From contig NC_135366.1 of NCBI RefSeq assembly GCF_051622035.1, positions 10,621,501-10,685,500 of the forward strand: a DNA stretch of 64,000 bases, given 5' to 3'. This DNA is from Arctopsyche grandis. Lineage: Eukaryota > Arthropoda > Insecta > Trichoptera > Hydropsychidae. A model generated the notes under the pieces. That model had not been told where the DNA came from, searched no databases, and worked only from the letters and a program-made list of their open reading frames with translations. Of this stretch, positions 36,327-52,355 are shown piece by piece; the stretch's first letter is position 1; each line of letters begins with the position of its first letter. A program made the translations under genes and the position numbers.

Positions 36327-37151
36327 TGTTATGACCTCATAGCATTGATATTTATAACGAAAGCCTTATCTGCTTTCCACTTTAGATAACCACATACGAT
36401 CGCACCAGACGAATCAGATTACGAACCAGACGAATCAGATTACGAACCATGCGAACCGTCAGCACATTTCACATTCCACATTCTTTAGATAACCACATAC
36501 GATCGCACCAGACGAATCGGATTACGAACTGTGTGAATGGTCAGCACATTCCACATTCCACATTCTTTAGATAACCACATACGATCGCACCAGACGAATC
36601 GGATTACGAACTGTGTGAATGGTCAACACATTGCACATTCCACATTCTTTAGATAACACAAGAAATGGCGTCGTCTATTTTGTATAAAAGGGGATACACG
36701 AACCCCGATAAGTCAGATTACCTCAGACAACACCACGTATAACTACTCTACTCTACTAGTGAAAACTCTTGTGAAAACCCTTGTGAAAACCCTTGTGAAA
36801 ACCCTTGTGAAAACTCTTGTGAAAACCCTTGTGAACTCTTGTGAAAAGCCTAGAAAAAACCTTGTGAAATTCCTTTGTTTAAAACTAGCATTTATAAACA
36901 TTAACTTCAACTTAAACTTAAAACATCGAAGTGATCTGGACCTTTTTATAAAAGGGTGCCTATAAATATCTCTTAGGCTAATATTGTAAACATTATTAAA
37001 GAATATAATAAATTCTAACTAATAAGAAAAACAAGTGACTTTTTATTACGGAAACAAAAAAGTGTTTATCTGGTTTGCTCGTAGATCAAACATTGATCTG
37101 CTTGTGAATCAGATATCACATTTTGTGTCTCCGGTCCGTCAGGACATAACA
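36327..37151 (+). repeat. 5' LTR of the Gypsy element
   Basis: It begins TGTTATG and ends CATAACA, a 7-bp perfect terminal inverted repeat. U3 carries an 82-bp tandem repeat (units starting ttagataacc at 36,485 and 36,567, partial at 36,649) plus a first unit lengthened by an internal 21-bp duplication (from 36,382). A TATA box (TATAAAA, 36,683-36,689) and an arthropod initiator (TCAGA, 36,713-36,717) are ~30 bp apart and suggest the transcription start. A 12-bp minisatellite (gtgaaaaccctt, ~7 copies) spans 36,760-36,850. AATAAA lies at 37,007-37,012. Confidence 0.95.
36683..36717 (+). promoter_or_regulatory. LTR core promoter: TATA box and initiator
   Basis: TATAAAA (36,683-36,689) lies about 30 bp upstream of TCAGATT, which fits the arthropod Inr consensus TCAKT loosely. 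The same arrangement recurs in the 3' LTR at 45,505-45,539. Confidence 0.7.
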
Positions 37152-37156
37152 TAAAA

Positions 37157-37178
37157 TGGTGGCAGCGTGGTGGGATTC
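37157..37178 (+). other. Primer binding site, probably tRNA-Leu
   Basis: The sequence tggtggcagcg + tggtgggattc begins with TGG and closely resembles the complement of the 3' end of a eukaryotic tRNA-Leu (acceptor stem, then T arm). It lies five bases after the LTR. The tRNA assignment is from general knowledge of tRNA ends and is not checked against this genome. Confidence 0.6.
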
Positions 37179-37773
37179 CTAAAGGAAAACCTCACAGAAG
37201 ACAGTCAAATAGAAACTCCATCTCAAAAGAATTTCTACGTCAATTAAGTCTACAAACTTGGAAAAGTCATTGTCAAGATATTGCTTCGCTGGAAGAGACT
37301 CATCTCACCCAGATATTCATTCGTGAATCGCGTTCACGTAACGCCGTGCTCAATCGACACGTTGGAACAGTATCACCCAAGACACATCGACGGATTCAAA
37401 TCCTGGCAACCAACATCTTCGCGGATCGCGCAAGGTGGTGAACTTCGTTCTTCAAGGAAGCCAAGACTCCACGACTACGACGACGACTACGACTACTACA
37501 TCTACAGTATTAACAGCATCACTTCACCTTACTTCACTTCACATCACGAGAGAGAGAGAGAATTCTTCTTCTACACATTACAGCAGTACAACGACCACGA
37601 TGAAGATATTAATGTAGGTCTTTATTATAAATACTAACCATAAAATTGTACAAACACTGTAAACACACACATACATAAACACACACTACACACGAAAGGT
37701 AATCTCATTGCAAAAAAAAAAATTAAACTCACTTCTTAAACTTTGCAATTAATCAATTAATTAAAAACTCAAA
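37179..37773 (+). other. Gypsy leader (5' untranslated region)
   Basis: This 600-bp leader contains GAC/TAC trinucleotide runs near 37,475-37,500 and an agagagag run near 37,550. The ORF at 37,281-37,637 has no Gag-like features and is probably not translated as a product. A possible 5' splice site (AAAG|GTAATC) lies near 37,699, suited to producing an env mRNA. Confidence 0.5.
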
Positions 37774-38817
37774 ATGGTTGGAACTTCAGGTGATAGTCCA
37801 ATACCAGAGGTACCAGAAGCATTAACAAAATTCACGATAGGTGAAATATCTTTAACAATATTATTCAAGTTCATAACGTCATACAATGGAGATAGGGACA
37901 CGCTCGAAATCTTCTTGACAAATTGCGATAGAACTCTTTTAATGGCTAGTCCGTCTCAAACAGAAACACTCTTTAAATATATCTTAGCATCATTAACAGA
38001 TAAAGCGGCAATAGTATGTGCAAATCATGATATAAAATCATGGAAAGAACTTAAAGAAATCCTACGGAGGAATTTCGGCGAAAGGAAACATTACGCGCAA
38101 TTGCTCATGGAACTGCAACAAACAAAACAAGGAGCCAGTGAGAAAGTAGCATCTTTCGTTAACAGGATTGAAACCTGCGTTAAAGATTGCCTAGTTTGCA
38201 TAAAACAAACGGCCACGACGGAAATGGCAAAGGGCAAGATAGAAAGCATCGAAGAACTTAGTCTTCAAGTATTTAACTTCGGAATACATAGCTCATTAGC
38301 TACAATTCTAAGAGCAAGAAACCCAAAGACCTTAAACCAAGCAATAAACATAGCGCTTGAAGAAGAAAGGATAAACAAGCTTCAAGACTTTACCAGAAAA
38401 CGATGTGGCATCTGCAATAAAGATGGCCACACGGCTAATAATTGTTATAAAAAATCGGGAAACGTAAATCGGAATAATCGCGATTTTACTAGTAAATTTA
38501 AAAATTTAAACATTAACACATACGAGGCAACTAAAAAAATATGCAAATTTTGCAAAAAGGAAGGACACTTAATCGATAAGTGTTATAAGAGAGCCAATCA
38601 GGGCAACGCCGTAGAGCGACCCACGAGTAATTTTAATTGGGGAACCAACGCTCCCGTGCGTCCTCAAAATAAATTCGTAAGACGGGACGACAAAGATCGT
38701 AATCCGCAGCAAAACTTCAATCGGAATGCGCAAAAGACGCATCTCCACATGATCAATAGATCAAAAAACGGGCGGCAATCGGTCGATGCTCGGATCGACT
38801 CAACCGATTTGCTTTAG
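37774..38817 (+). CDS. gag: Gag polyprotein
   Basis: The Gag structural protein forms virus-like particles and packages RNA. It has 347 codons and the ATG at 37,774 follows a non-coding leader. The N-terminal two thirds is a helical capsid-like region (FITSYNGDRDTLEIFLTNCD, then LKEILRRNFGERKHYAQLL) typical of Gypsy-type Gag. The C-terminal third has two CCHC zinc knuckles, CGICNKDGHTANNC and CKFCKKEGHLIDKC (each C-x2-C-x4-H-x4-C), followed by a basic, Asn/Arg-rich tail. The frame is intact. A heptanucleotide slip site and hairpin near its 3' end (38,763-38,808) feed ribosomes into pol in the -1 frame. Confidence 0.93.
   Translation: MVGTSGDSPIPEVPEALTKFTIGEISLTILFKFITSYNGDRDTLEIFLTNCDRTLLMASPSQTETLFKYILASLTDKAAIVCANHDIKSWKELKEILRRNFGERKHYAQLLMELQQTKQGASEKVASFVNRIETCVKDCLVCIKQTATTEMAKGKIESIEELSLQVFNFGIHSSLATILRARNPKTLNQAINIALEEERINKLQDFTRKRCGICNKDGHTANNCYKKSGNVNRNNRDFTSKFKNLNINTYEATKKICKFCKKEGHLIDKCYKRANQGNAVERPTSNFNWGTNAPVRPQNKFVRRDDKDRNPQQNFNRNAQKTHLHMINRSKNGRQSVDARIDSTDLL
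38763..38808 (+). promoter_or_regulatory. -1 programmed ribosomal frameshift signal (gag-pol)
   Basis: The heptamer AAAAAAC at 38,763-38,769 is in the correct phase (A AAA AAC) in the gag frame. After an 8-base spacer, a hairpin follows. The outer arms are atcggt (38,778-38,783) and accgat (38,803-38,808). The inner arms are cgat (38,84-87 of this block, i.e. 38,784-38,787) and atcg (38,794-38,797). The pol frame is open from this point through the gag stop to the protease. This matches the canonical retroviral arrangement. Confidence 0.8.
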
Positions 38818-40958
38818 ATCCAATAATCTACCATCTAGGTGACTACAGTCTGGGAAACATGAAAATCCTTCGACTTAGTATACCGAAAGGAGATGACTAC
38901 ATCTCGAGATCATTCCTTGTCGACACTGGGGCAGGAATATCTTTAATAAAAGATTATTGCATAGATGAAACTGTTTCGTTGATAGACGAAAATATACATC
39001 TAAACGGAATATCCGGTGATTCCACGATCAAAGCCCTTGGAAGTATTTTTATTAACCTCAATATTGATGGTTATCGGCTCAGTAATAAGTTTCAAGTCAT
39101 CCAAGATGATGATAGTTTAAACCTCGATTATGACGGGATAATCGGAGGAGATCTCTTAGAAAAAGAGAAGGCAACCTTAGATTACGCGAATAATCTATTG
39201 ATTTTAAACAACGGCCTAAAAATAAAATTGAAACATAAAAGTCCTCTAAATGAAAATAACAATTATAGCAATTTAAATGAAAATAATAATTCTGTAAATG
39301 AAAATTATGATAACGAAAATCATATTAATATTTTAAAACCAAGAACAGAAACTTTAATAGAAATCAATGTACTTAACCCTGAAATAGAGGAAGGCATTGT
39401 TGAACAAGAATTAAATATACCAGGAGTATATCTCGCTAAAGCCATAGTTAAAGTAAATAAAAACTCTAAAGCTTTATGCACAATTTTAAATCTAACGGAA
39501 AAAAGTATTACGCTAGATACATTGGAAATAAAATTAAAGCCAATGAATAAAGAAGTATATAAATTAGATAGAGACAATAGATCTAAAATCGAAGATAGAA
39601 AAAAATTATTGAACAAAACTATTAGAATGGATCACTTGAATCCAGAAGAAAAAATGTCATTAATATCACTTTGCGAAAAATATCATTACATATTTCATTT
39701 GACGGGAGATAAATTAACATCTACGGATTGCATAGAACATAAAATCATAACTAACTCGGATAAACCAATACATAATAAATCATATAGGTATCCAGAAGTT
39801 CATAAAAAAGAAGTAAACGATCAGATCGAGAAAATGTTGAACGAAAACATAATCAAACCTTCAACTTCTCCTTGGTCCTCGCCTTTATGGGTCGTACCCA
39901 AAAAGAAAGACGCCTCAGGACAAGAGAAATGGAGAATAGTTATCGACTATCGACAATTAAATAACATCACCATAGGAGATGCATATCCTCTTCCAAACAT
40001 AAATGAAATACTTGACCAACTAGGAAAAAGTAAATATTTTACCACTTTAGATTTAGCAAACGGATTCCATCAAATCAAAGTAGATTCAAAAGACATTATA
40101 AAAACCGCGTTCTCTACACCCAATGGACACTACGAATATCATCGTATGCCATTCGGCCTTAAGAATGCACCAGCCACTTTTCAAAGGCTGATGAATAACA
40201 TATTAAGCGGACTTAACGGTACGAGTTGCTTTGTCTATTTAGATGACATTGTCATATATGCAACCACGCTTAAAGAACATAACACAAAACTAGAAAAAGT
40301 ATTCGACAAACTTGCGAAAAATAACCTAAAATTACAACCAGATAAGTGCGAATTCTTACGAACAGAGGTAGCTTATCTAGGCCATATAATAACTGATAAG
40401 GGAGTATTGCCCAACCCAGACAAGATTAGGTGCATCAAGGAATGCCAAGAACCTAGGACACCGAAGGAAATCAAATCATTCATGGGATTAACTAGTTATT
40501 ATCGTAAATTCATAAAAGATTTTAGTAAAACCATTAAACCTTTAACAACCTTGTTAAAAAAGGATACACTATTTAATTGGGGTCATGAACAGCAAAATGC
40601 ATTTGACACTCTTAAAGAACAATTAACCTCAACTCCAATATTACAATACCCAGATTTTACCCAACAATTTATATTGACTACTGACGCATCAGACTATGCA
40701 ATAGGCGCAGTATTAAGCCAAGGAAAATCAGGAAAAGACTTACCAATCTCTTACGGCTCTAGAACTCTCAACAAAGCAGAGATTAATTATAGTACCATAG
40801 AAAAAGAACTATTAGCTATAATTTGGGGAGTAGAACATTATAGACCATATCTGTACGGCAGGAAATTTACTATCTATACCGATCACAGACCCTTAAGATA
40901 TCTATTCGAAATGCAAAAGCCCGTACATCTAAATTTATTAGATGGAGACTCAGACTAG
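38769..40958 (+). pseudogene. pol: Pol part 1: protease, reverse transcriptase, RNase H (frameshifted at its end)
   Basis: This part matures the polyprotein and synthesises element DNA. Translation should enter at 38,769 by -1 frameshifting; the first ATG is at 38,859. From that ATG, an aspartic protease (VDTGAGISLIK) lies near residue 22. The RT spans about residues 290-520, with WRIVIDYRQLNNIT, LDLANGFHQI, MPFGLKNAPATFQ and catalytic YLDD at 40,236-40,247 (residue ~460). RNase H starts near residue 600 (TTDASDYAIGAVL, later YSTIEKELLAI and IYTDHRPL). Close to 40,920 the frame changes and translation stops at 40,956-40,958, while the expected RNase H end continues in the next frame. A single-base deletion, mutational or from assembly, is the simplest cause. 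Confidence 0.9.
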
Positions 40959-41107
40959 AGGAATATGATTATGATATTCAGTATAAAGAAGGAAGAATTA
41001 ACTGTAACGCAGACTTCTTATCTAGAATCAAAAATGAAAGCTATGAATCATTTTTACGATATGATCACACTAAACTCAATTTAAAAATGCAGGAAATACA
41101 GAAATCA

Positions 41108-41500
41108 TTATTAGAAAGCGACAGTAATATTGCACACTGCGTTTCTAAAGATCTGAAAATGTCTAAAGGCATTGCAGAAGAAATAAAAGGAATAATAAAA
41201 AATTATAATGAATTAATTAATACGAGACGAGATATAACAGATATATTACATTCAAAATTCGAGAGTAAAATAATTTATCATTTAGTAACGAAAGCAAAAT
41301 ACTTTGACAAACCGACATATGAAAATGTCTTTCAAACGCTTAAAAACCTTAGAGATCTTTTAAAGGAAGATAAAATCAAAACCCTAGCTATACCAAAACT
41401 TGCTAGTGGAGAAGATAACCTAGCTTGGAAACGAATTAAACAAATGATACAATACGTATTTAGAGACTCGGAAATAAATATACAATTATATATAAAACCA
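41108..41500 (+). other. Macro domain (TARG1/OARD1-like) inside Pol
   Basis: About 130 residues between RNase H and integrase fit the TARG1/OARD1 family of macro domains, which bind ADP-ribose and remove it from proteins. The N-terminal ligand-binding strand-helix is SNIAHCVSKDLKMSKGIAEE. The middle is IIYHLVTKAKYFDKPTYEN. The C-terminal part is IKTLAIPKLASGEDNLAWKR followed by MIQYVFRD and INIQLYI. The lysine of the LVTK strand and the aspartate of GED-NLAW stand where TARG1 has its catalytic Lys and Asp. The glycine-rich loop is altered (ASGED). Identification is from family knowledge; activity is inferred. Confidence 0.7.
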
Positions 41501-41859
41501 ATTAACGTAAATCCAATAACTTACGACTTGATAAACGAATCAGAACTTTTATCACCTATCAGAACGCCTGATATAGACGAACTAATTCGGACAAGAGACG
41601 ATCTTGACGAAGAAACCATGGACTTCAACGAAAACCTGTTCGATGAAGAACCAGATATTCAATTAAATTACCAACCTTCAGATAACGAACAAGAGATAGA
41701 TTCTTCTAGCGAAATTAACTTTAAAAACTTTATGAGAACAATAAAACTAGGAACAACCGAAAACAACGAAAACGTTACGGAAACGAACGGATACTTATTA
41801 ACCAATATAAATATTGCGTATCCAACATCATTAGACCTTGATGAAAACAACCCTTATTG

Positions 41860-42195
41860 TTTATCCATATTAGAAGACTTATCCAGTCAAGAAATGTTAT
41901 CAGAAAGAGAAAAGCAATTAAAAGATGTGATACTAACAGAATCGAAAGATTTCAAAAGGAAATACTTTCACTGTTTCACTAAAGTTCACTATTTCGATAA
42001 AACCGAAACTAAGATAATATTCGAAACGTTAGTTAATTTAAAAATTAAATTAATCGAATTTAACATTGACCAATTAGCAATAGCAAATTTCCAAAATCAA
42101 TATGACACTATGTCAACTGCTAAAATAAAACTCATGATTGAATTTATATTTAAAGATACAAACATAAAAATACTAATATGTCATAATAAATTAAT
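41860..42195 (+). other. Second, degenerate macro-like segment inside Pol
   Basis: A second segment repeats the layout of the first: FHCFTKVHYFDKTETKIIFE aligns with YHLVTKAKYFDKPTYENVFQ. Then FNIDQLAIANF and IKLMIEFIFKDTNIKILIC align with the C-terminal part of the first copy. The catalytic loop is not recognisable (NQYDTM in place of the G-x-D loop), and the N-terminal half is hardly visible. It looks like a duplicated, no longer catalytic macro fold immediately before the integrase zinc domain. Confidence 0.55.
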
Positions 42196-43257
42196 AACTC
42201 CAACATCTAGCCAAATACCAATCATCTTAAAGGAAAATCATAATTCTCCAACAGCAGGACATACAGGATTGATGAAAACCTTAGCTAGAATAAAAACTAA
42301 ATATATTTGGAACAATATGAAAGACGACATATTAAACTATATAAAAAACTGTATTGATTGTCAGAAAAACAAAACTGATAGACATAAATACAAGGCACCA
42401 ATGGAAATTACCACTACGTCAACGACGGCATTTGAAAGAATAGCCATAGACATTGTAGGACCATTAAACGAAACCGAAAAGGGAAATAAATATATTCTAA
42501 CTGTACAAGATGACTTGACGAAATATTCTCAAGCGTACGCGATAAAAATAACAAATTCAGAAACAATCGCAATTAATCTTATCACACATTTCTCACATTA
42601 CGGAATACCGAAATCATTACTCACGGATTTAGGAACTCAATTTACAAGTAACATCACGAAAGAACTTACGAAATTATTAAAAATAAAACATTTGAAAACT
42701 ACGGCATATCATCCACAAACTAATGGAGCCTTAGAAAGATCCCATTCAACTCTTAAAGATTATTTAACAAACTTTGTAAACAATACTCATACAAATTGGG
42801 ACGAATTATTAACATTCGCAATGCTGTGTTATAATACAACACAACATACCGCAACTAAATTCACACCTTACGAACTAGTATTCGGACATACGCCAATATT
42901 ACCTAGTTCATTGAATGAATTAGAACCAGACGTAACATATGGAACATATATAAATACGTTAAAATTCAGATTAGCAAAAATAAGAAATCTTGCACGAGAA
43001 AACATAATTCGCGCCAAGATACAAGCTAAAAGAAATTACGATAAGAACATTCACGACTACAATTACGAAGTGAATGACTTAATACTGTTAAAAATGAATA
43101 TTATACCACGTTCATTAAACAAGAAGCTGACTGCGAACTGGAAAGGTCCATATCGCATTACTGAAATACATAATAATCAAACCATCACCATTCGAATCGA
43201 AAATAACCGATTGAAACGCGTTCATAAAAACATTATAAAACCATTCTATGGATAAAA

Positions 43258-43265
43258 TATTTCAG
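43258..43265 (+). promoter_or_regulatory. Candidate 3' splice site for env mRNA
   Basis: TATTTCAG lies three bases after the pol stop and one base before the env frame. Gypsy-type env genes are known to be expressed from a spliced subgenomic RNA. The matching donor would have to contribute two bases of a codon. Confidence 0.5.
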
Positions 43266-43266
43266 A

Positions 43267-45111
43267 TTGCTCATCCTAACCACCAGACTCGCATCCTCAC
43301 AAAACATCACTACCATTCCAAAAGGCAACGGCCTTTACTTCAATCAAATCGGAACGATCAAAATAAGCGAAGGAAGCTGGAACGTATTAACATATATTAA
43401 TACAACTATTATTCAACTTGAATTAGATCAAATACGCGAAGGACTTACAAATCTTTCAACGAAATGTCAAATTATTAGAAAAAATATTAGAAAAGTAGGA
43501 TGTTATAAACATCTTAATCCTTTAGAATCATTATATGAAGAAATCAAGAATAAATACCAAGATATAACTTATCTAGTATTAAGAAAACGTACCAAGCGAG
43601 GACTTATAGACGGAATAGGTACAGTATTGAAAACCGTATTCGGAACCTTAGATGCAGAAGACGCTAAATACTATGACGAATCAATTGATAAAATAAACCA
43701 AGACGAGACCCACATAATAGAACTTATGAAAGGTCAGATACACGTCACAGAAGACGCAATAAATAGCTTTAACAAAACAATTGTTAACCTTAATAATAAC
43801 GAAAAACTCCTGAATATAGGATTAAATAAAATAGATGTACTATTAAATAAAACTAAATTAGAAATAGACTTTACCGAAATGAACTCAGTTTATAGGGAAC
43901 AAACGGAATTATTAACTTTAAATCTAGATAGATTAAGAGATAGAATAGAGACAATAATTTACTCCATTCTTTTCGCAAAACAGCAAATATTACACCCAGA
44001 CATATTATCACCAGCAACCTTATATAAAGAATTAGAAGATAAATCAAAAATGATACCCAGTGGATATGAATTGCCATTACCACTTAGATATGAAACCTCA
44101 CATACGTTAATGGACATAGGAGAATTGATAGTATATTCCACTTATGGAAAAATAATATATTTACTAAAAATACCACTAGTAACTTCAAACGAATACAAAC
44201 TTTACAAAATGTATCCATTACCAATTCCACACGATGATCATACTGACATCTACTCACTAATACTACCAAATAAGAATTATATAATAAAGTCAAAAGACGA
44301 ACTAACTTATGCCATGTTTGACATAATAAAAGAAAAATGTAAGATTATAAGTAACGAAAAATATGTATGCACGGAACTGAATCTGTTGTCAGTCCATCAA
44401 AATAATGAATGTGAACCCAGTCTACTAATCAATAATGTAAGAATTATTCCAGAAACTTGCAGAACTAGAAATATAAAAGGAAAAATAAACCTTTGGCAAA
44501 AGCTCACAGCTAACAGATGGTTATATACCTTATCTGAAAATGCCAGAATTAAAATAGAATGTAAAGATAAAATCAGTAAAATTGTAGAATTAATACATAC
44601 AGGAATGTTAAGTTTAGACAAGAATTGTAAAACTTATAATGGACTTATAAAAATCTCATCTAACGATCAATTACAAGTAGAATATGAGAATCCATACTCA
44701 AATATTAACATCATTAACGATAAATGTTGTCTACTTAAAGACTTTAACAGCTCCTTATATAACGTAGATCCTATTGAACTAGAAAACGTTGAACTTTCGA
44801 ATTCAATGAATACAATAAATAAACTGGAAAAATTCAACGACAAATTGGAAGATTATCAAAATCAACCAATCATTGTGAAACATTCACATGTACTTTTATA
44901 TATATCTTTAACAATAATTATAATCATAAGTATAATCATAACCTTTATGCTTAAAGGATACATAATAAAAAAATATTGTAAAAATAAGCCCAGATTCAAT
45001 ATACACTTCAAGAAAAGAAATAATTTAGAATCAAGTAACGTAGAAATTCTAGATAATGAAAGTTCGCCTATGACAGCCGAACAAAGATTAAATTCAATTC
45101 AAATTCACTAA
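43267..45111 (+). CDS. env: Env-like glycoprotein (insect errantivirus type)
   Basis: This would be a membrane fusion glycoprotein of the errantivirus type. The frame is 614 codons from 43,267, but it starts with TTG and no in-frame ATG lies at its beginning. A splice acceptor (tatttcag ending at 43,265) suggests translation from a spliced mRNA that brings the start codon from upstream. Features in order are a short hydrophobic N-terminus, a furin-type site RKRTKR (43,582-43,599) followed directly by a glycine-rich fusion-peptide-like stretch GLIDGIGTVLKTVFGTL, coiled-coil-like heptads, cysteine-rich ectodomain, a membrane anchor of ~20 residues (about 44,890-44,955) and a ~50-residue cytoplasmic tail. 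The frame has no stop. Whether it is functional is unknown. Confidence 0.85.
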   Translation: MLILTTRLASSQNITTIPKGNGLYFNQIGTIKISEGSWNVLTYINTTIIQLELDQIREGLTNLSTKCQIIRKNIRKVGCYKHLNPLESLYEEIKNKYQDITYLVLRKRTKRGLIDGIGTVLKTVFGTLDAEDAKYYDESIDKINQDETHIIELMKGQIHVTEDAINSFNKTIVNLNNNEKLLNIGLNKIDVLLNKTKLEIDFTEMNSVYREQTELLTLNLDRLRDRIETIIYSILFAKQQILHPDILSPATLYKELEDKSKMIPSGYELPLPLRYETSHTLMDIGELIVYSTYGKIIYLLKIPLVTSNEYKLYKMYPLPIPHDDHTDIYSLILPNKNYIIKSKDELTYAMFDIIKEKCKIISNEKYVCTELNLLSVHQNNECEPSLLINNVRIIPETCRTRNIKGKINLWQKLTANRWLYTLSENARIKIECKDKISKIVELIHTGMLSLDKNCKTYNGLIKISSNDQLQVEYENPYSNINIINDKCCLLKDFNSSLYNVDPIELENVELSNSMNTINKLEKFNDKLEDYQNQPIIVKHSHVLLYISLTIIIIISIIITFMLKGYIIKKYCKNKPRFNIHFKKRNNLESSNVEILDNESSPMTAEQRLNSIQIH

Positions 45112-45135
45112 ATTCAAATATTAGTGAATTACTTT

Positions 45136-45148
45136 AAGAAGGGAGGGA
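45136..45148 (+). other. Polypurine tract
   Basis: aagaagggaggga directly precedes the TG of the 3' LTR. It primes plus-strand DNA synthesis. Confidence 0.9.
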
Positions 45149-45973
45149 TGTTATGACCTCATAGCATTGATATTTATAACGAAAGCCTTATCTGCTTTCC
45201 ACTTTAGATAACCACATACGATCGCACCAGACGAATCAGATTACGAACCAGACGAATCAGATTACGAACCATGCGAACCGTCAGCACATTTCACATTCCA
45301 CATTCTTTAGATAACCACATACGATCGCACCAGACGAATCGGATTACGAACTGTGTGAATGGTCAGCACATTCCACATTCCACATTCTTTAGATAACCAC
45401 ATACGATCGCACCAGACGAATCGGATTACGAACTGTGTGAATGGTCAACACATTGCACATTCCACATTCTTTAGATAACACAAGAAATGGCGTCGTCTAT
45501 TTTGTATAAAAGGGGATACACGAACCCCGATAAGTCAGATTACCTCAGACAACACCACGTATAACTACTCTACTCTACTAGTGAAAACTCTTGTGAAAAC
45601 CCTTGTGAAAACCCTTGTGAAAACCCTTGTGAAAACTCTTGTGAAAACCCTTGTGAACTCTTGTGAAAAGCCTAGAAAAAACCTTGTGAAATTCCTTTGT
45701 TTAAAACTAGCATTTATAAACATTAACTTCAACTTAAACTTAAAACATCGAAGTGATCTGGACCTTTTTATAAAAGGGTGCCTATAAATATCTCTTAGGC
45801 TAATATTGTAAACATTATTAAAGAATATAATAAATTCTAACTAATAAGAAAAACAAGTGACTTTTTATTACGGAAACAAAAAAGTGTTTATCTGGTTTGC
45901 TCGTAGATCAAACATTGATCTGCTTGTGAATCAGATATCACATTTTGTGTCTCCGGTCCGTCAGGACATAACA
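45149..45973 (+). repeat. 3' LTR of the Gypsy element
   Basis: It is 825 bp, the same length as the 5' LTR, and I found no difference by eye along U3 repeats, minisatellite or ends. Identity indicates a recent insertion. The 68-codon ORF at 45,581-45,787 (repeating KTLV) is the 12-bp minisatellite and not a gene. Confidence 0.95.
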
Positions 45974-46363: not shown

Positions 46364-46904
46364 TGATGGTCATTTCGAACCGGACACCAGTAACCTAGGC
46401 CACAACACCAAACGGGAAAACCAATAGGAAAAAACGTGGTCGAGAAAAAATGGATGTCAATTAAGAAATCGGTATCGTTCCTTTGTTACTATCCATACCT
46501 TTCCAATACTAATAACATGTTTGCTTCTATTTCAGCAATATATTGATTGATGTACAGAGGTACATGACCGCGTGATTGACGCAGAAAATATATAAATAAA
46601 AACATAACCTACAAAGACGCATGGGACACAGAGGTAATCCAAAATTATCGGAACGATCACATAAACATCGTAAAGGATATTCAAGTAAGTGAATGTATTC
46701 AATCTCAGGCAATCTGTTCAAAAGGCAATCATGTGGGTAGGTCAGTTTTTAAAATATGTTTTAAAGTATAACAATTAATTAACGCGATTGTATAAAATAA
46801 TATCGCGCTACGAAGGAATGTTTCATCGGTCGCATCGAATTTCGTATTAAAAGTGTAAAATCAGATGTAGTGTAAAATTAGCAAAGCACGTGGGGAATTA
46901 TACT
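46364..46904 (+). other. BEL leader, first part, with primer binding site candidate
   Basis: tggtcatttcgaaccgga at 46,367-46,384 lies three bases after the LTR and is the likely primer site. I cannot assign the tRNA with confidence. The rest is non-coding. Confidence 0.5.
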
Positions 46905-47545
46905 TGTAGCCCCAAAGTGGTTTAAAGCAAGTACATACCGGTATATTCATACATCGGTAGATCTTTGTTTCTTAATGTGTGTAGAAACACCCTCCCCCCC
47001 CCCCTCCACGATAAATGTGGAATTACACTTGTAGCCCCAAAGTGGCTTAAACCAAGTACGTACCGGTATATTCATACATCGGTAGATCTTTGTTTCTTAA
47101 TGTATGTAGAAACACCCTCCCCCCCTCCCTCCACAATAAATGTGGAATTACACTTGTAGCCCCAAAGTGGCTTAAACCAAGTACGTACCGGTATATTCAT
47201 ACATCGGTAGATCTATTTGTTTCTTAATGTGTGTAGAAACATCCTCCCCCCCCCCTCCACGATAAATGTGGAATTACACTTGTAGCCCCAAAGTGGCTTA
47301 AGCCAAGTACGTACCGGTATATTCATACATCGGTAGATCTCTTTGTTTCATAATGTGTGATGAAACAGTGGTGATTTAAAATAAATCACAAGACTTGTAG
47401 CCCCAAAGTGGATTAAATCAAGTACATACCGGTATATTCATACATCGGTAGATCTCTTTGTTTCATAATGTGTGATGAAACAGTGGTGATTTAAAATAAA
47501 TCACAAGACTTGTAGCCCCAAAGTGGTTTAAATCAAGCACCCACC
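46905..47545 (+). repeat. Tandem repeat in BEL leader (six units, 125 and 115 bp)
   Basis: Units start with tgtagccccaaagtgg at 46,905, 47,030, 47,155, 47,281, 47,396 and 47,511 (last partial). Each contains taccggtatattcatacatc and ggtagatct. The first three complete units end in a C-rich run (accctcccccccc) before ccacgataaatgtgg. The fourth and fifth lack it and carry gatgaaacagtggtgattt instead. Confidence 0.9.
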
Positions 47546-47732
47546 AATTTAGGGTTGTTATTTCTTCCAAAATATGTTGGATAGATTCTGGTGATAATAG
47601 TTAAAGTAGAATATTAAGATTCACGGTTAATCATTGAATATTATTACCTTATCTCTACGAATAGTTCAATTGACAGCTATAGTAGAGAATAACTGTATTT
47701 ATGAGACGAAATAGTGCAACTTTCTGAAACAA

Positions 47733-50700
47733 ATGTCAAGTGCTAAAAACGAGGAAATAGAAGCTTCGACTTCCCAGTCGCATAAAGGTCGAAATCCAAC
47801 TAGGGACGTAGAACCTATTAGAGACAGGTCAAGCTCTAGAATACATCAGACTCGAAGTCAGACTCAATCGATAGAAATATTAGCGAAGGAAAATAAAGTA
47901 GAAGTTATAATGACGTCAATAGAATTAAGGTATTCAGGCGCGGTACAAAGACTAAAAGGAAAAATAGATAAATCCTCCGAATTAGATGAAGGACAGTATC
48001 AAACCATTAAAGAAGCATACGATTATGTCCGAAAACTCCATTACGAGTATTTAGATAACCTTACAGACATATCGAAAGCGGCCAAAATAGACGAAGAGTA
48101 CGATGCAATTACAATAACAGTTAAAAATCTTAAAGCAGCATTAGATTGCCAATCCTTTCAAGATAGTAAACTAAAGGTAGAGCAAGCAACAATTAAATTT
48201 GCTAGAGATAAGTTACCGACGTTAACCATTCCCACATTTCAGGGAGATCCATCTGAATGGCAATCATTTCAACAAGCTTTTAAGAATATAATAGGAAACA
48301 AAACGGAATATTCGAATGTCACTAAATTACTATATTTGCATCAATCATTACTCGGTCCCGCTTTAGCAGCTGTATCAGGGTTAGATATTAGCTCAGACAA
48401 TTATGAAATAACGTGGAGTATTTTAGACAAGCAATACAATTTACCAAGACTTAATCTTAAAACTAGGATCAACTCACTTTGTGACTTAAAATTAATCACA
48501 AAGGAATCACATATCGAATTGAGAGATCTATTAAATAAGGTAACGGTGTGTATTAAAAACATTGAATCATTGGGTTACGCGAGAGAAAATTTAGATCCAT
48601 GGGTAACATGTTTAGTTCTAAGGAAATTACCATTTAGTTTATTAAAGGACTGGGAAACATCTCTGGTTGACAGAGAAATGCCACCGTACGAGAAGTTAGA
48701 AACGTTTCTGCAGAATAGATGTAACGTATTACAATCTACTGCATCTGTAATTACGGTGAAAGAATTCCCTCATAACCGTCAACGAATCAGGAGAACTCAT
48801 GTCGCGAACAAAAACCCATCAAGTAGAGTAAACTCATGTGCATTTTGTCGAAATAATCATTTCATAGGTAAATGCGATAAATTCAAAGCAAAATCCAGTT
48901 TGGAAAGAAATGAATTCGTTAAATCTAATAACATGTGTTTTAAATGTTTAAATTCATCGCATAAGATAACAAATTGCAGGTCTAACTTTAATTGCTTAAG
49001 GTGCAAACAAAACCATCATACTTTGTTGCATCAGGACGATACATTTAGTTCAAATAATACGGGAAGGAAGTCAATTAATGCTCATTCTACTCATTTCTCT
49101 CAAAGGGAGATAATTTTACCCACGGTACAAGTAGACATTATAACGTCCAATGGAACGGTCGTTAAGGGCCGCACATTATTAGATTCCGGCTCACAAGTCA
49201 ACTATGTTACCACATCTTTCGCTAAGAAGAATAACTTCAAATTAGAGAAAATCTCTCAAAAAATTGTAGGTATCGCTAATCAAGAAAGTAGCATTCGTCA
49301 CATCACCAAGGTGACCATAAGGTCTTCAACCACTAATTACTCAACCAAAGTGTTGTGTTTGGTATTACCAGAAATTACTGGCGAAATTCCAACTGTGAAA
49401 CTGGATCAACAGTTAATTTCAATACCAGCGGGAATCAAGTTATCAGATCCCCTTTGGAATAAACCGACGCCAATCGATTTATTGCTCGGCGCCGAGATTT
49501 GCGTTCATGCTATGAAAGCAGGAACCATCCAGTTAGGAAAAGGTATGCCTATCTTAAAGGATACCGAATTCGGATGGACAATAGTTGGTCCATATCCCGA
49601 AGTAAATAATGCTCCAGGGAAGAGCCACATAGGCTTAAGTCAATTAGACAGTCACATTCAAAACTTTTGGATGATAGACCAGGTTCCTATGGTAAAACAT
49701 CAATCTCTTGAGGAGAAAAGATGTGAGGAACATTTCCAAGCACACACATCACGAGATAAAAACGGTAGATTTTGTGTAGCTTTACCATATAAAAATTCCC
49801 CGGTAGTATTAGGAAGTTCATTGCACATTGCGGAGAAAAGACACAAAACTTTGGAAAGACGTTTTTTAGCCAATAATAATTTAAAAATGGAATACAATAA
49901 AGTTTTAGAAGAGTACATAAATTTAGGACATATGTCAGAGTGTGAACCTCCGGAGGCACATGAGGTTCATTGTTATTTACCTCATCACGTCGTGGTTAAG
50001 GAGTCTAGCCTTACCACTAAATATCGTGTAGTTTTTGATGCGTCCGCGAAGACAACGTCCAATATCTCACTAAATAATATTTTGATGGTGGGACCTAGTG
50101 TCCAATCAGATTGGTTAAATTTATTTTTATTAAAACTTATTGAACTCATTCCTCAGACAATCTTCAAAAAATGGAAGGATTGTCAATTATCCAATACAGT
50201 CATGAAACTTTATAAAATTCCTAGATTGATAATACTAAATAATGCCATTAATATACAGGCACACGGATTTTGTGACGCATCCGAGAAAGCTTATGGTGCT
50301 TGTATTTATGTAAAATGTACTGATCAATTGGGAAATTCCAAATGTCATCTTGTGTGTTCTCGTTCGAGAGTCGCTCCGCTCAGTTTTGTAACTATTCCGC
50401 GTTTAGAGCTGTGCTCCGCTATGTTATTATCAAAGTTAATGAAGTCAACAATAGACCAATTAACAATTCATATTAATGAAAAATATTATTGGACGGATTC
50501 AACCGTCGCATTGCATTGGATTAGGGGAGAGTCATGTAAATGGACTACCTTCGTTGCCAATCGAGTGGCCGAAATCCAATCAATATCTCAACCCATTGAG
50601 TGGTACCATGTCTCCTCTACAGACAATCCAGCAGATTTAATTTCTCGAGGGACTCAACCATCAGAATTAAATCATAATTCGTTATGGTGGGACGGCCCTA

Positions 50701-51179
50701 GTTGGTTGAAATTAGATGAATCACGATGGCCTCGAAGACCTCCTGAGATCACAATAGATCTTCCAGAGAGAAGGGTAGTCACTAACGCTACCCTTGTGAG
50801 GGAAAATAATTGGATAGATAAATATTCTCATCTTCCAAGACTCCTTCGAGTTTTATCATATGTTCGTCGGCCACTAAGGAATAAACAATTAAACGTTAAA
50901 GAAAATAACGAACCGTCCGCTTTAGAATTAAAAGATGCTTTAAATAATTTGATTAGGTTATCGCAAATGGAATCATTTCCATTGGAATATCATTTGCTGA
51001 GCAAGGGACATCCAATTCCCAGTAGCAGTAAATTAGCTAAATTGTCCCCTCTATTCCATGAGAATTTAATTTGTGTTGGAAGTAGACTTCCTCTGGGAAC
51101 AACTCTATCAACGTCACCCATTATCTTGTCAAATAAGCATAAACTTACACACATGATTGTCCGAGATGCACACTTATAA
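47733..51179 (+). pseudogene. gag-pol: BEL/Pao Gag-Pol, RT core deleted, ends at premature stop
   Basis: The polyprotein has 1148 codons from ATG 47,733. The Gag part includes the DUF1759-type region (LTIPTFQGDPSEWQSFQQAF near residue 160). Zinc knuckles start near residue 369 (CAFCRNNHFIGKC and CFKCLNSSHKITNC). The aspartic protease (LLDSGSQVNYV) lies near residue 484. RT begins normally (KYRVVFDASAKT, NNILMVGPSVQ, near residue 764-790) but then jumps to the region just before RNase H (LYKIPRLI, GFCDASEKAYGACIY near residue 845). The palm with its YxDD motif, roughly 300 residues by comparison with family members, is missing. RNase H continues (YYWTDSTVALHWI near 918). The frame ends at a TAA (51,177-51,179) in the middle of the integrase zinc region. 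Confidence 0.9.
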
Positions 51180-52355
51180 TATATTCACTTGGGTACTCAA
51201 GCCTTACTGTCGTTATTGCGGCAGACCTATTGGCCATTGGCCGGACATAATACTGTCAAAGGAGTGGTGCGTTCATGTGTCATTTGTTTCAGAAATAAAC
51301 CACTGTCACACAATAGATTAATGGGATTACTCCCGCTTGAACGTACCACTGCGAATTTTCCTTTCGGTCATGTGGGGATAGACTTCGCAGGACCTTTTCC
51401 TGTGAAGACTGGTTGCAATAAGAATTCTAAGATAATTAAGGGTTACGTTTGTGTCTTTGTGTGTTTTTCCAGTAAGGCAGTTCACTTGGAACTTGTCGGA
51501 GACTTAACGAGTTCAAATTTCTTAAATTGTTTAAGAAGATTCGTAGCCAGACGTGGCAGGCCCAATACGATATATTCCGACAATGCTACTAATTTTGTCG
51601 GTGCAAGTCGTGAACTCGTTAATTTAGTAAAATTAATTTACGAATGTCCTCATGAGGAGAAGCTACTACGGTATGTAGCCTCCGAAGGGATTCGTTGGAA
51701 GTTTAACCCGCCAAGGGCGCCTCACATGGGAGGGCTGTGGGAAGCAGCGGTTAAATCCACGAAAATTCATTTAAACAAGGTGTTAAAGGCCACCACCTTA
51801 AATTTCGAATCATTTTGTACGGTATTGACTCAAATAGAAGCTTGCATGAATTCCCGTCCTCTTAGTCCCTTGTCATCGGATCCACTAGACCTTTTACCCC
51901 TCACACCTGGACATTTCTTAATTGGCAGATCCTTACTCGCTCTTCCAATGGAGGTTAAATATAACACTAATGTCCATGCCAATCTGCTTCAGATACAATT
52001 GACCACAGCAGCATTTTGGAAACGTTGGTCGGCGGAATATTTACATTCTTTGCAGTTACGACACAAATGGAAGAAGGACTCGAGCAACAATCTGAGTGTG
52101 GGTCAAATGGTCCTGTTAAAGGAGGAACACATGCTGCCAACCCGATGGGTCTTGGGTCGAGTCACTAAATTGTATCCCGGATCAGATGGCAGAGTTCGAG
52201 TCGTCGACGTCTTTACTGCCAGCGGAGAGTTTCGTCGGTCCAGTCATCTAGTGGCGCCATTGCCGATTCTACCACAAGGACCACTTGACAGGAAGGAAGA
52301 TCAGCAAGATGGAGGAGAAACAGCAGCTTCAATTCCGTCAACTTCGGTAGCTTAG
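51180..52355 (+). pseudogene. pol: BEL/Pao integrase part of Pol (downstream of the stop)
   Basis: This is in the same frame as the preceding ORF, separated only by the TAA. The zinc-binding region (HLGTQALLSLLRQTYWPLAGH, then CVICFRNK) and the DDE core (GIDFAGPFPVK, YSDNATNFVGA, HMGGLWEAAVKS) are visible. It is followed by the DUF5641-type C-terminus (FWKRWSAEYLHSLQLRHKW, then LPTRWVLGRVTKLYPG). It would integrate element DNA. It probably has no own start; the TTG at 51,189 is not a credible one. The sequence looks otherwise intact. Confidence 0.9.

Follow-up and report, generated by a model that had tools for sequence, protein, structure and literature searches.

Introduction

Several RNA viruses, among them alphaviruses, coronaviruses and rubella virus, carry macro domains that have been described as countering host ADP-ribosylation. 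These viral domains belong to macro clades other than that of the cellular enzyme TARG1 (also named OARD1 or C6orf130; ALC1-type clade), which also strips ADP-ribose from DNA. In PMC6397177, Lys84 of TARG1 is given as the nucleophile, Asp125 as catalytic, Asp20 as serving the adenine and the GxG loop as serving the pyrophosphate, with His32, Cys33, Ser35 and Thr83 surrounding the distal ribose; a sequence pattern for TARG1, TKx(30,35)Px[IL]GxGxD, is published there, and DarG is described as stripping ADP-ribose from DNA (PMC6397177). In human TARG1, the substitutions I44E and G123E are reported to abolish both ADP-ribose binding and activity (PMC5928194), and TARG1 activity is tied to the DNA damage response (PMC10933786). 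Among LTR retroelements, the AlkB protein of Gypsy elements in Phalaenopsis orchids is described as active in vitro (PMC9289625).

The DNA analysed here is a stretch of 64,000 nucleotides from Arctopsyche grandis (NC_135366.1, positions 10,621,501 to 10,685,500), hereafter the window. A sequence-only reading of it had placed a TARG1-like macro domain and a degenerate second copy in the Pol of an env-bearing Gypsy element, and had proposed profile searches, structure prediction with an overlay on TARG1, and a survey of Gypsy Pols for the same insert.

Results

The element in the window

The window has a G+C content of 33% and contains an env-bearing Gypsy-type element, as the sequence-only reading had it, with an LTR pair, gag, pol and a Baculo_F-type env (Table 1). 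LTRs, gag, pol and an F-type env, the features of errantiviruses, are thus all present. The protease in the first pol frame gave a weak RVP match (E 0.003, under the cut-off). The two LTRs are identical, which suggests that the insertion is recent; the 4-bp sequence GTAT flanks the element on either side, a weak sign since the flank is repetitive. Besides the LTR pair and the repeats inside the LTRs, no further copies of the element were found in the window.

Table 1. Coordinates of the element and of its coding and macro-domain features in the window.
Feature	Position	Strand	Evidence
LTR element	36327..45973	+	LTR pair, gag, pol, env
5' LTR, 825 bp, TG...CA	36327..37151	+	825/825 bp same as 45149-45973
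gag ORF	37765..38817	+	Retrotrans_gag 29.5 bits (cut-off 24.1)
pol first frame: protease, RT, most of RNase H	38760..40958	+	RVT_1 6e-42; RT_RNaseH positions 1-90 of 105
pol second frame: RNase H end, macro copies, integrase	40844..43255	+	ORF, domain matches
Macro domain copy 1, TARG1/OARD1-like	41084..41494	+	phmmer, profile, alignment, predicted fold
Copy 1 catalytic codons	Lys84 equivalent 41291; Asp125 equivalent 41414	+	alignment
Linker, acidic	41495..41770	+	23 D+E vs 6 K+R in 84-residue piece
Macro domain copy 2, degenerate	41771..42184	+	profiles, shuffles, hhalign, predicted fold
Copy 2 catalytic codons	Lys 41981; Asp 42104	+	alignment
Integrase zinc-binding domain (H2C2)	42209..42376	+	E 2e-18
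Integrase core (rve)	42431..42715	+	E 1e-7, 32.6 bits, at cut-off
env ORF	43228..45111	+	Baculo_F E 1.5e-41
3' LTR	45149..45973	+	pair with 36327-37151

The coding capacity of this copy is not intact, for the reading frame of pol changes inside RNase H. Since two related Pols (P0003 and P0004) keep a single frame from before RT through integrase, either the pol of the window copy is interrupted or there is a sequence error in RNase H.

Several other features were observed in the same region. Both LTRs contain a 12-bp tandem repeat (36732-36887 and 45554-45709) and more internal repeats. Immediately downstream of the element lies a 125-bp tandem repeat in five copies (46891-47506), followed by the remains of a BEL/Pao element (47715-52355) with DUF1759, Peptidase_A17 and integrase and with an in-frame stop at 51177-51179; no RT domain was matched in these remains at E 0.01. 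Searches for tRNAs (ARAGORN, bacterial setting) and for Rfam families gave no matches in the window.

A TARG1-type macro domain at the start of the insert

The insert begins with what is, by sequence and predicted fold, a TARG1-type macro domain, as had been proposed. Among solved structures, the best match of copy 1 was human TARG1 (phmmer, E 5.2e-19, spanning residues 6-128 of an insert 362 aa long), and a profile of six macro domains located the copy at residues 84-217 of the second pol frame (142 bits, nearly the full profile). AlphaFold2 predicted a macro fold (pLDDT 93.9, pTM 0.89), for which ranks 1-8 of a Foldseek search against the PDB were all C6orf130/TARG1; the same protein took ranks 1-8 for the model of copy 2 described below. 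Against 4j5s_C, the TM score of copy 1 was 0.83 by model length and 0.92 by TARG1 length, with 29% identity. The general Macro model of Pfam scored 23 bits on copy 1 cut out alone (cut-off 22), and 21.4 and 19.4 bits, below the cut-off, on longer pieces containing it. As the model is only borderline on this copy, automatic annotation can miss such domains.

Alignment with TARG1 revealed that copy 1 keeps His-Cys-x-Ser, Thr-Lys, Asp, Ile44 and Gly123; the catalytic Lys and Asp that the sequence-only reading took to be retained are both in place. Ala replaces the first Gly of the GxG loop (Ala-Ser-Gly), for which reason the strict TARG1 pattern does not match the window copy. The residue aligned with Asp20 is Ser, at a position made unsure by a nearby alignment gap, and Asp20 has probably been lost.

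Recurrence in other Gypsy Pols

A database search with the insert returned nine proteins, seven of which were Pols, having an RNase H or integrase domain; P0009 and P0010 were not. A second search with one relative as the query returned 14 proteins, all with retroelement domains and 12 of them new. In this way, the macro domain was found in 19 Gypsy-type Pols besides that of the window. It separates RNase H from integrase in 18 of these, and the remaining one, P0022, ends within the domain. Searches queried with the insert return macro-bearing Pols only, so these counts concern Pols that have the insert. Four of the 19 have organism names attached: Sipha flava (P0007), Uroleucon formosanum (P0013 and P0021) and, for P0015, a name truncated at 'Cin', presumably Cinara. 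We take all of these to be aphids. The combination of macro domain and Gypsy Pol is already present in databases, the automatic name of P0015 containing 'Macro domain'.

From the end motif of RNase H to the H2C2 zinc domain of integrase there are 404 residues in the window, against 186-200 in 13 of the 17 relatives measurable by script; the extra stretch noticed there at first sight is therefore real. Longer distances were found in P0020 (250 residues), P0004 (327), P0002 (330) and P0003 (366). A piece of cellular OARD1 dropped into one copy by chance or misassembly could be suspected from the frame change in the window's pol, for which nothing else was found to speak, but this change lies upstream, in RNase H, and other Pols carry the domain at the same junction. 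We rejected this explanation on account of those relatives, and its probability is negligible.

A second macro domain was detected only in the window and P0003 (all 20 Pols were scanned, P0022 being incomplete). P0002 and P0004 each have some 150 residues ahead of integrase, which were considered as worn macro domains and rejected (hhalign 0.1%; profiles -1.7 to 4.5 bits); the two segments have no clear likeness to each other (E 0.38).

Macro domains were also observed in other settings. A scan of viral contigs with RT gave no Gypsy relative. A 139-aa TARG1-like ORF containing TK and GCGLD is present on a 110-kb viral contig (L001:5989-6408). P0009 (jgi source) is a 495-aa protein with a TARG1-like macro domain (E 2.5e-33 to one human TARG1 chain), a Cys-rich start, a coiled coil (by eye) and an end that weakly resembles GDSL (E 0.013 as an isolated piece, under the cut-off); this layout recalls the ORF1 protein of LINEs, of which P0009 is a candidate, and the domain may have been captured separately. 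P0044 (jgi source) is perhaps a Gypsy element with its macro domain elsewhere: the tail behind that domain has a faint likeness to the linker between protease and RT in P0004 (E 0.004 among 142 proteins, 10.9 bits for the best stretch; E 0.21 by BLASTP).

The degenerate second copy

Copy 2 was identified by the six-domain profile at residues 310-447 of the second pol frame (50.5 bits, profile positions 1-139), and neither Pfam Macro nor NCBIfam matched it. Independent profiles, from which the sequences of the window, P0002 and P0003 had been left out, gave 39.2 bits with 26 cellular or environmental domains and 61.7 bits with 13 element domains, scores reached by 0 of 1000 shuffles in each case. 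The second copy of P0003 gave 42.7 and 55.1 bits with the same two profiles (again 0 of 1000 shuffles). When the second copies of the window and P0003 were compared by hhalign with a macro alignment including both copies 1, the probability was 99.4% over 138 columns. Chance likeness is thereby rejected, and the second macro copy foreseen in the sequence-only reading exists. The predicted start at 41860 was too late, the domain beginning near 41771. The acidic linker between the copies had no macro signal in macro profile scoring. AlphaFold2 predicted a macro fold for copy 2 as well (pLDDT 83.9, pTM 0.81), from an input alignment of macro domains, which biases the model in that direction.

The second copy had been thought to be without the catalytic loop. 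Its loop 1 and GxG loop, which hold ADP-ribose, are indeed lost, with Gln for both loop glycines, but Ser35, Thr-Lys and Asp are retained, so that the equivalents of Lys84 and Asp125 are both kept. Further changes are Tyr-Pro for His-Cys and Tyr for Ile44; in the second copy of P0003, Lys84 is changed to Glu and the loop is shortened. Ile44 and Gly123, at which a change to Glu costs human TARG1 both ligand binding and activity, are thus lost, and copy 2 is probably inactive despite its two catalytic letters.

In BLASTP, copy 2 of the window was similarly close to its own copy 1 (52 bits) and to the second copy of P0003 (43 bits). The best tree joins the two second copies (83/60), both on very long branches, and three alternative topologies were not rejected (p-AU 0.16, 0.09 and 0.28). 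These sequences fit either one duplication common to the window and P0003 or two duplications.

Conservation of the active site

Conservation was examined in 23 element domains of the copy-1 type, including three fragments, two of which (P0023 and P0098) were counted as element by their integrase zinc domain and one (P0126) by its likeness to P0020. Lys84 is kept in all 23 and Asp125 in 20 of the 21 long enough to include it, P0021 having Glu instead, counts that are not independent, as many of the elements are close kin. The position aligned with Asp20 is Asp in 11 of the 23 rows, Asn in nine and Ser in the window and P0002, with one row not reaching it. Nine of 22 element sequences match the strict TARG1 pattern (P0022 ends before it), and much of the GxG loop is altered in P0016, P0019 and P0021.

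These data bear on the idea that a former enzyme now serves as a structural filler, a spacer between RNase H and integrase, with copy 2 showing the trend. The loss of the pocket loops in copy 2 agrees with it, as do the Ala in one loop position and the probable loss of Asp20 in copy 1 of the window, and the segments of P0002 and P0004, which occupy the place of copy 2 and have no macro signal. The near-complete retention of Lys84 and Asp125 in the copy-1 domains speaks against it, and we consider it quite unlikely.

Mean identity among the elements is 51% for the macro domain, 68% for RT and 57% for integrase. Macro and integrase identities are correlated (r 0.72, 105 pairs of 15 elements, the pairs being non-independent). 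P0012, P0013 and P0016 are 90-96% identical in RT, 73-76% in integrase and 56-65% in the macro domain (P0013 and P0016: 96%, 76% and 61%; P0012 and P0016: 90%, 73% and 56%). Since closeness in RT and in the 3' part of pol disagrees in some pairs, the history of the macro domain is not simply that of RT. The discordance points to recombination downstream of RT, by which the macro-integrase block would at times have passed from one element to another; a great difference in rate between the two parts would also fit.

Origin of the domain

In a tree of 64 domains, 19 element domains were separated from 45 cellular or environmental ones across one branch (support 88/88; 86% of 200 bootstrap trees, the bootstrap being unsettled at 0.972). 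This tree left out the second copies, P0009, P0010, P0006, P0011, P0021, P0022, P0129 and most unnamed rows; P0006, P0011, P0021 and P0022 are close or partial elements, and P0129 is one of 16 named cellular rows. In a tree of 144 rows, the label 'element' needed four changes, three of which came from the then-unlabelled fragments P0023, P0098 and P0126. Of 740 matches, 120 were covered by the source list. Because the element domains sit on one side of the 88/88 branch, the trees suggest a single capture by the element lineage, which is favoured short of proof. The element domains do not nest among the included fly OARD1s, in trees without aphid OARD1, and this disfavours recent uptake of the domain from a gene like those of flies.

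An old cellular capture and a capture from an insect RNA virus are both possible. The viral source, in place of a cellular gene, draws on the structure models: the best viral matches of copy 1 include insect-associated RNA viruses, with VP8 of Kadipiro virus first (37% identity), followed by flavi-, negev- and virga-like viruses of thrips (Foldseek). The identity with Kadipiro virus exceeds that with human TARG1 (28-29%, Foldseek) and with the fly OARD1s P0035, P0037, P0038 and P0047 (27-31%, by another aligner), which favours this source a little, and insect retrotransposons are reported to have captured viral helicases (PMC6338049). However, unnamed environmental domains reach 40% identity (P0032), the trees covered element, cellular and environmental domains, and the viral domains are candidate TARG1-type domains. 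We regard a viral source as doubtful.

Discussion

Our best guess is a hydrolase acting around integration. It draws on the constant location ahead of integrase, the retention of both catalytic residues and the link of TARG1 activity with the DNA damage response. A Gypsy lineage, at least one element of which bears env, would have taken up a TARG1-type ADP-ribosylhydrolase at the junction of RNase H and integrase and kept it, with copy 2 in a structural or binding role; judged from sequences and predicted structures, the chances of this proposal appear evenly balanced. In its favour are also TARG1 as the best hit by sequence and fold, the recurrence of the insert, the 88/88 branch and the correlation of macro with integrase identity; the altered pocket residues, the lower conservation of the macro domain and the discordant pairs count against it. 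The macro domain would travel with integrase, as an N-terminal extension or as a released neighbour. Where host PARPs set ADP-ribose at DNA breaks, it would strip the mark off Asp/Glu in integrase, in Gag or in chromatin proteins, or alternatively off the termini of the element's cDNA, and integration would be left unblocked. Copy 2, with its pocket loops lost and its fold predicted intact, may be a spacer, a dimerisation module or a binding module beside integrase. More tentatively, and with somewhat less than an even chance of being right, the lineage may erase PARP-set marks from cDNA ends or the integration complex with this integrase-adjacent hydrolase as a counter-defence, partly duplicated and split into a catalytic and a structural copy.

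Alternatively, the macro domain may bind ADP-ribose, PAR or nucleic acid without hydrolysis and target integrase to PARylated chromatin or DNA breaks, a role such as chromodomains are thought to play in some LTR elements. Its position adjoining integrase and the remodelled pocket of several members would suit binding, and the NCBIfam model of DarG, a DNA-ADP-ribose hydrolase, partly matches copy 1 (E 1.8e-13, 50.5 bits, far under the cut-off of 250). The catalytic Lys and Asp, needless for pure binding, are among the most conserved positions, and we think this reading rather unlikely. If a hydrolase acting around integration is the true role, ADP-ribosylation would be a likely barrier to retroelement integration in insects. 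Macro domains are a known counter-defence of RNA viruses; here a conserved one lies beside the integrase of a reverse-transcribing element.

The window element resembles insect errantiviruses (env-bearing Gypsy) in its LTRs, gag, pol and Baculo_F-type env, and differs from them in the macro domain(s) of its Pol; we know of no described errantivirus with a macro domain. A limited literature search of titles and abstract beginnings, with the env-Gypsy survey of Chary and Hayashi (eLife 108449) outside its scope, found no macro domain in a Gypsy Pol, and in the full-text papers searched the word 'macro' was absent or occurred only in words of the macrophage or macronucleus type. Copy 1 is like TARG1/OARD1 in its fold and in Lys84, Asp125, His32-Cys33, Ser35 and Thr83, and unlike it in lying in a retroelement Pol, in its Ala-Ser-Gly loop, in probably having no Asp20 and in standing in tandem with a degraded copy. 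The macro domains of RNA viruses differ in being carried by RNA viruses. The viral helicases of insect retrotransposons are likewise accessory domains caught by insect retroelements, as described in PMC6338049, but they are helicases, and 'macro' occurs there only as 'macrophage'. In the AlkB-bearing Gypsy elements of Phalaenopsis, an LTR element also has a host-type enzyme that removes a modification, though that enzyme is a different one, in a separate ORF and in plants (PMC9289625). With this finding, the accessory domains retained by LTR elements include one more enzyme.
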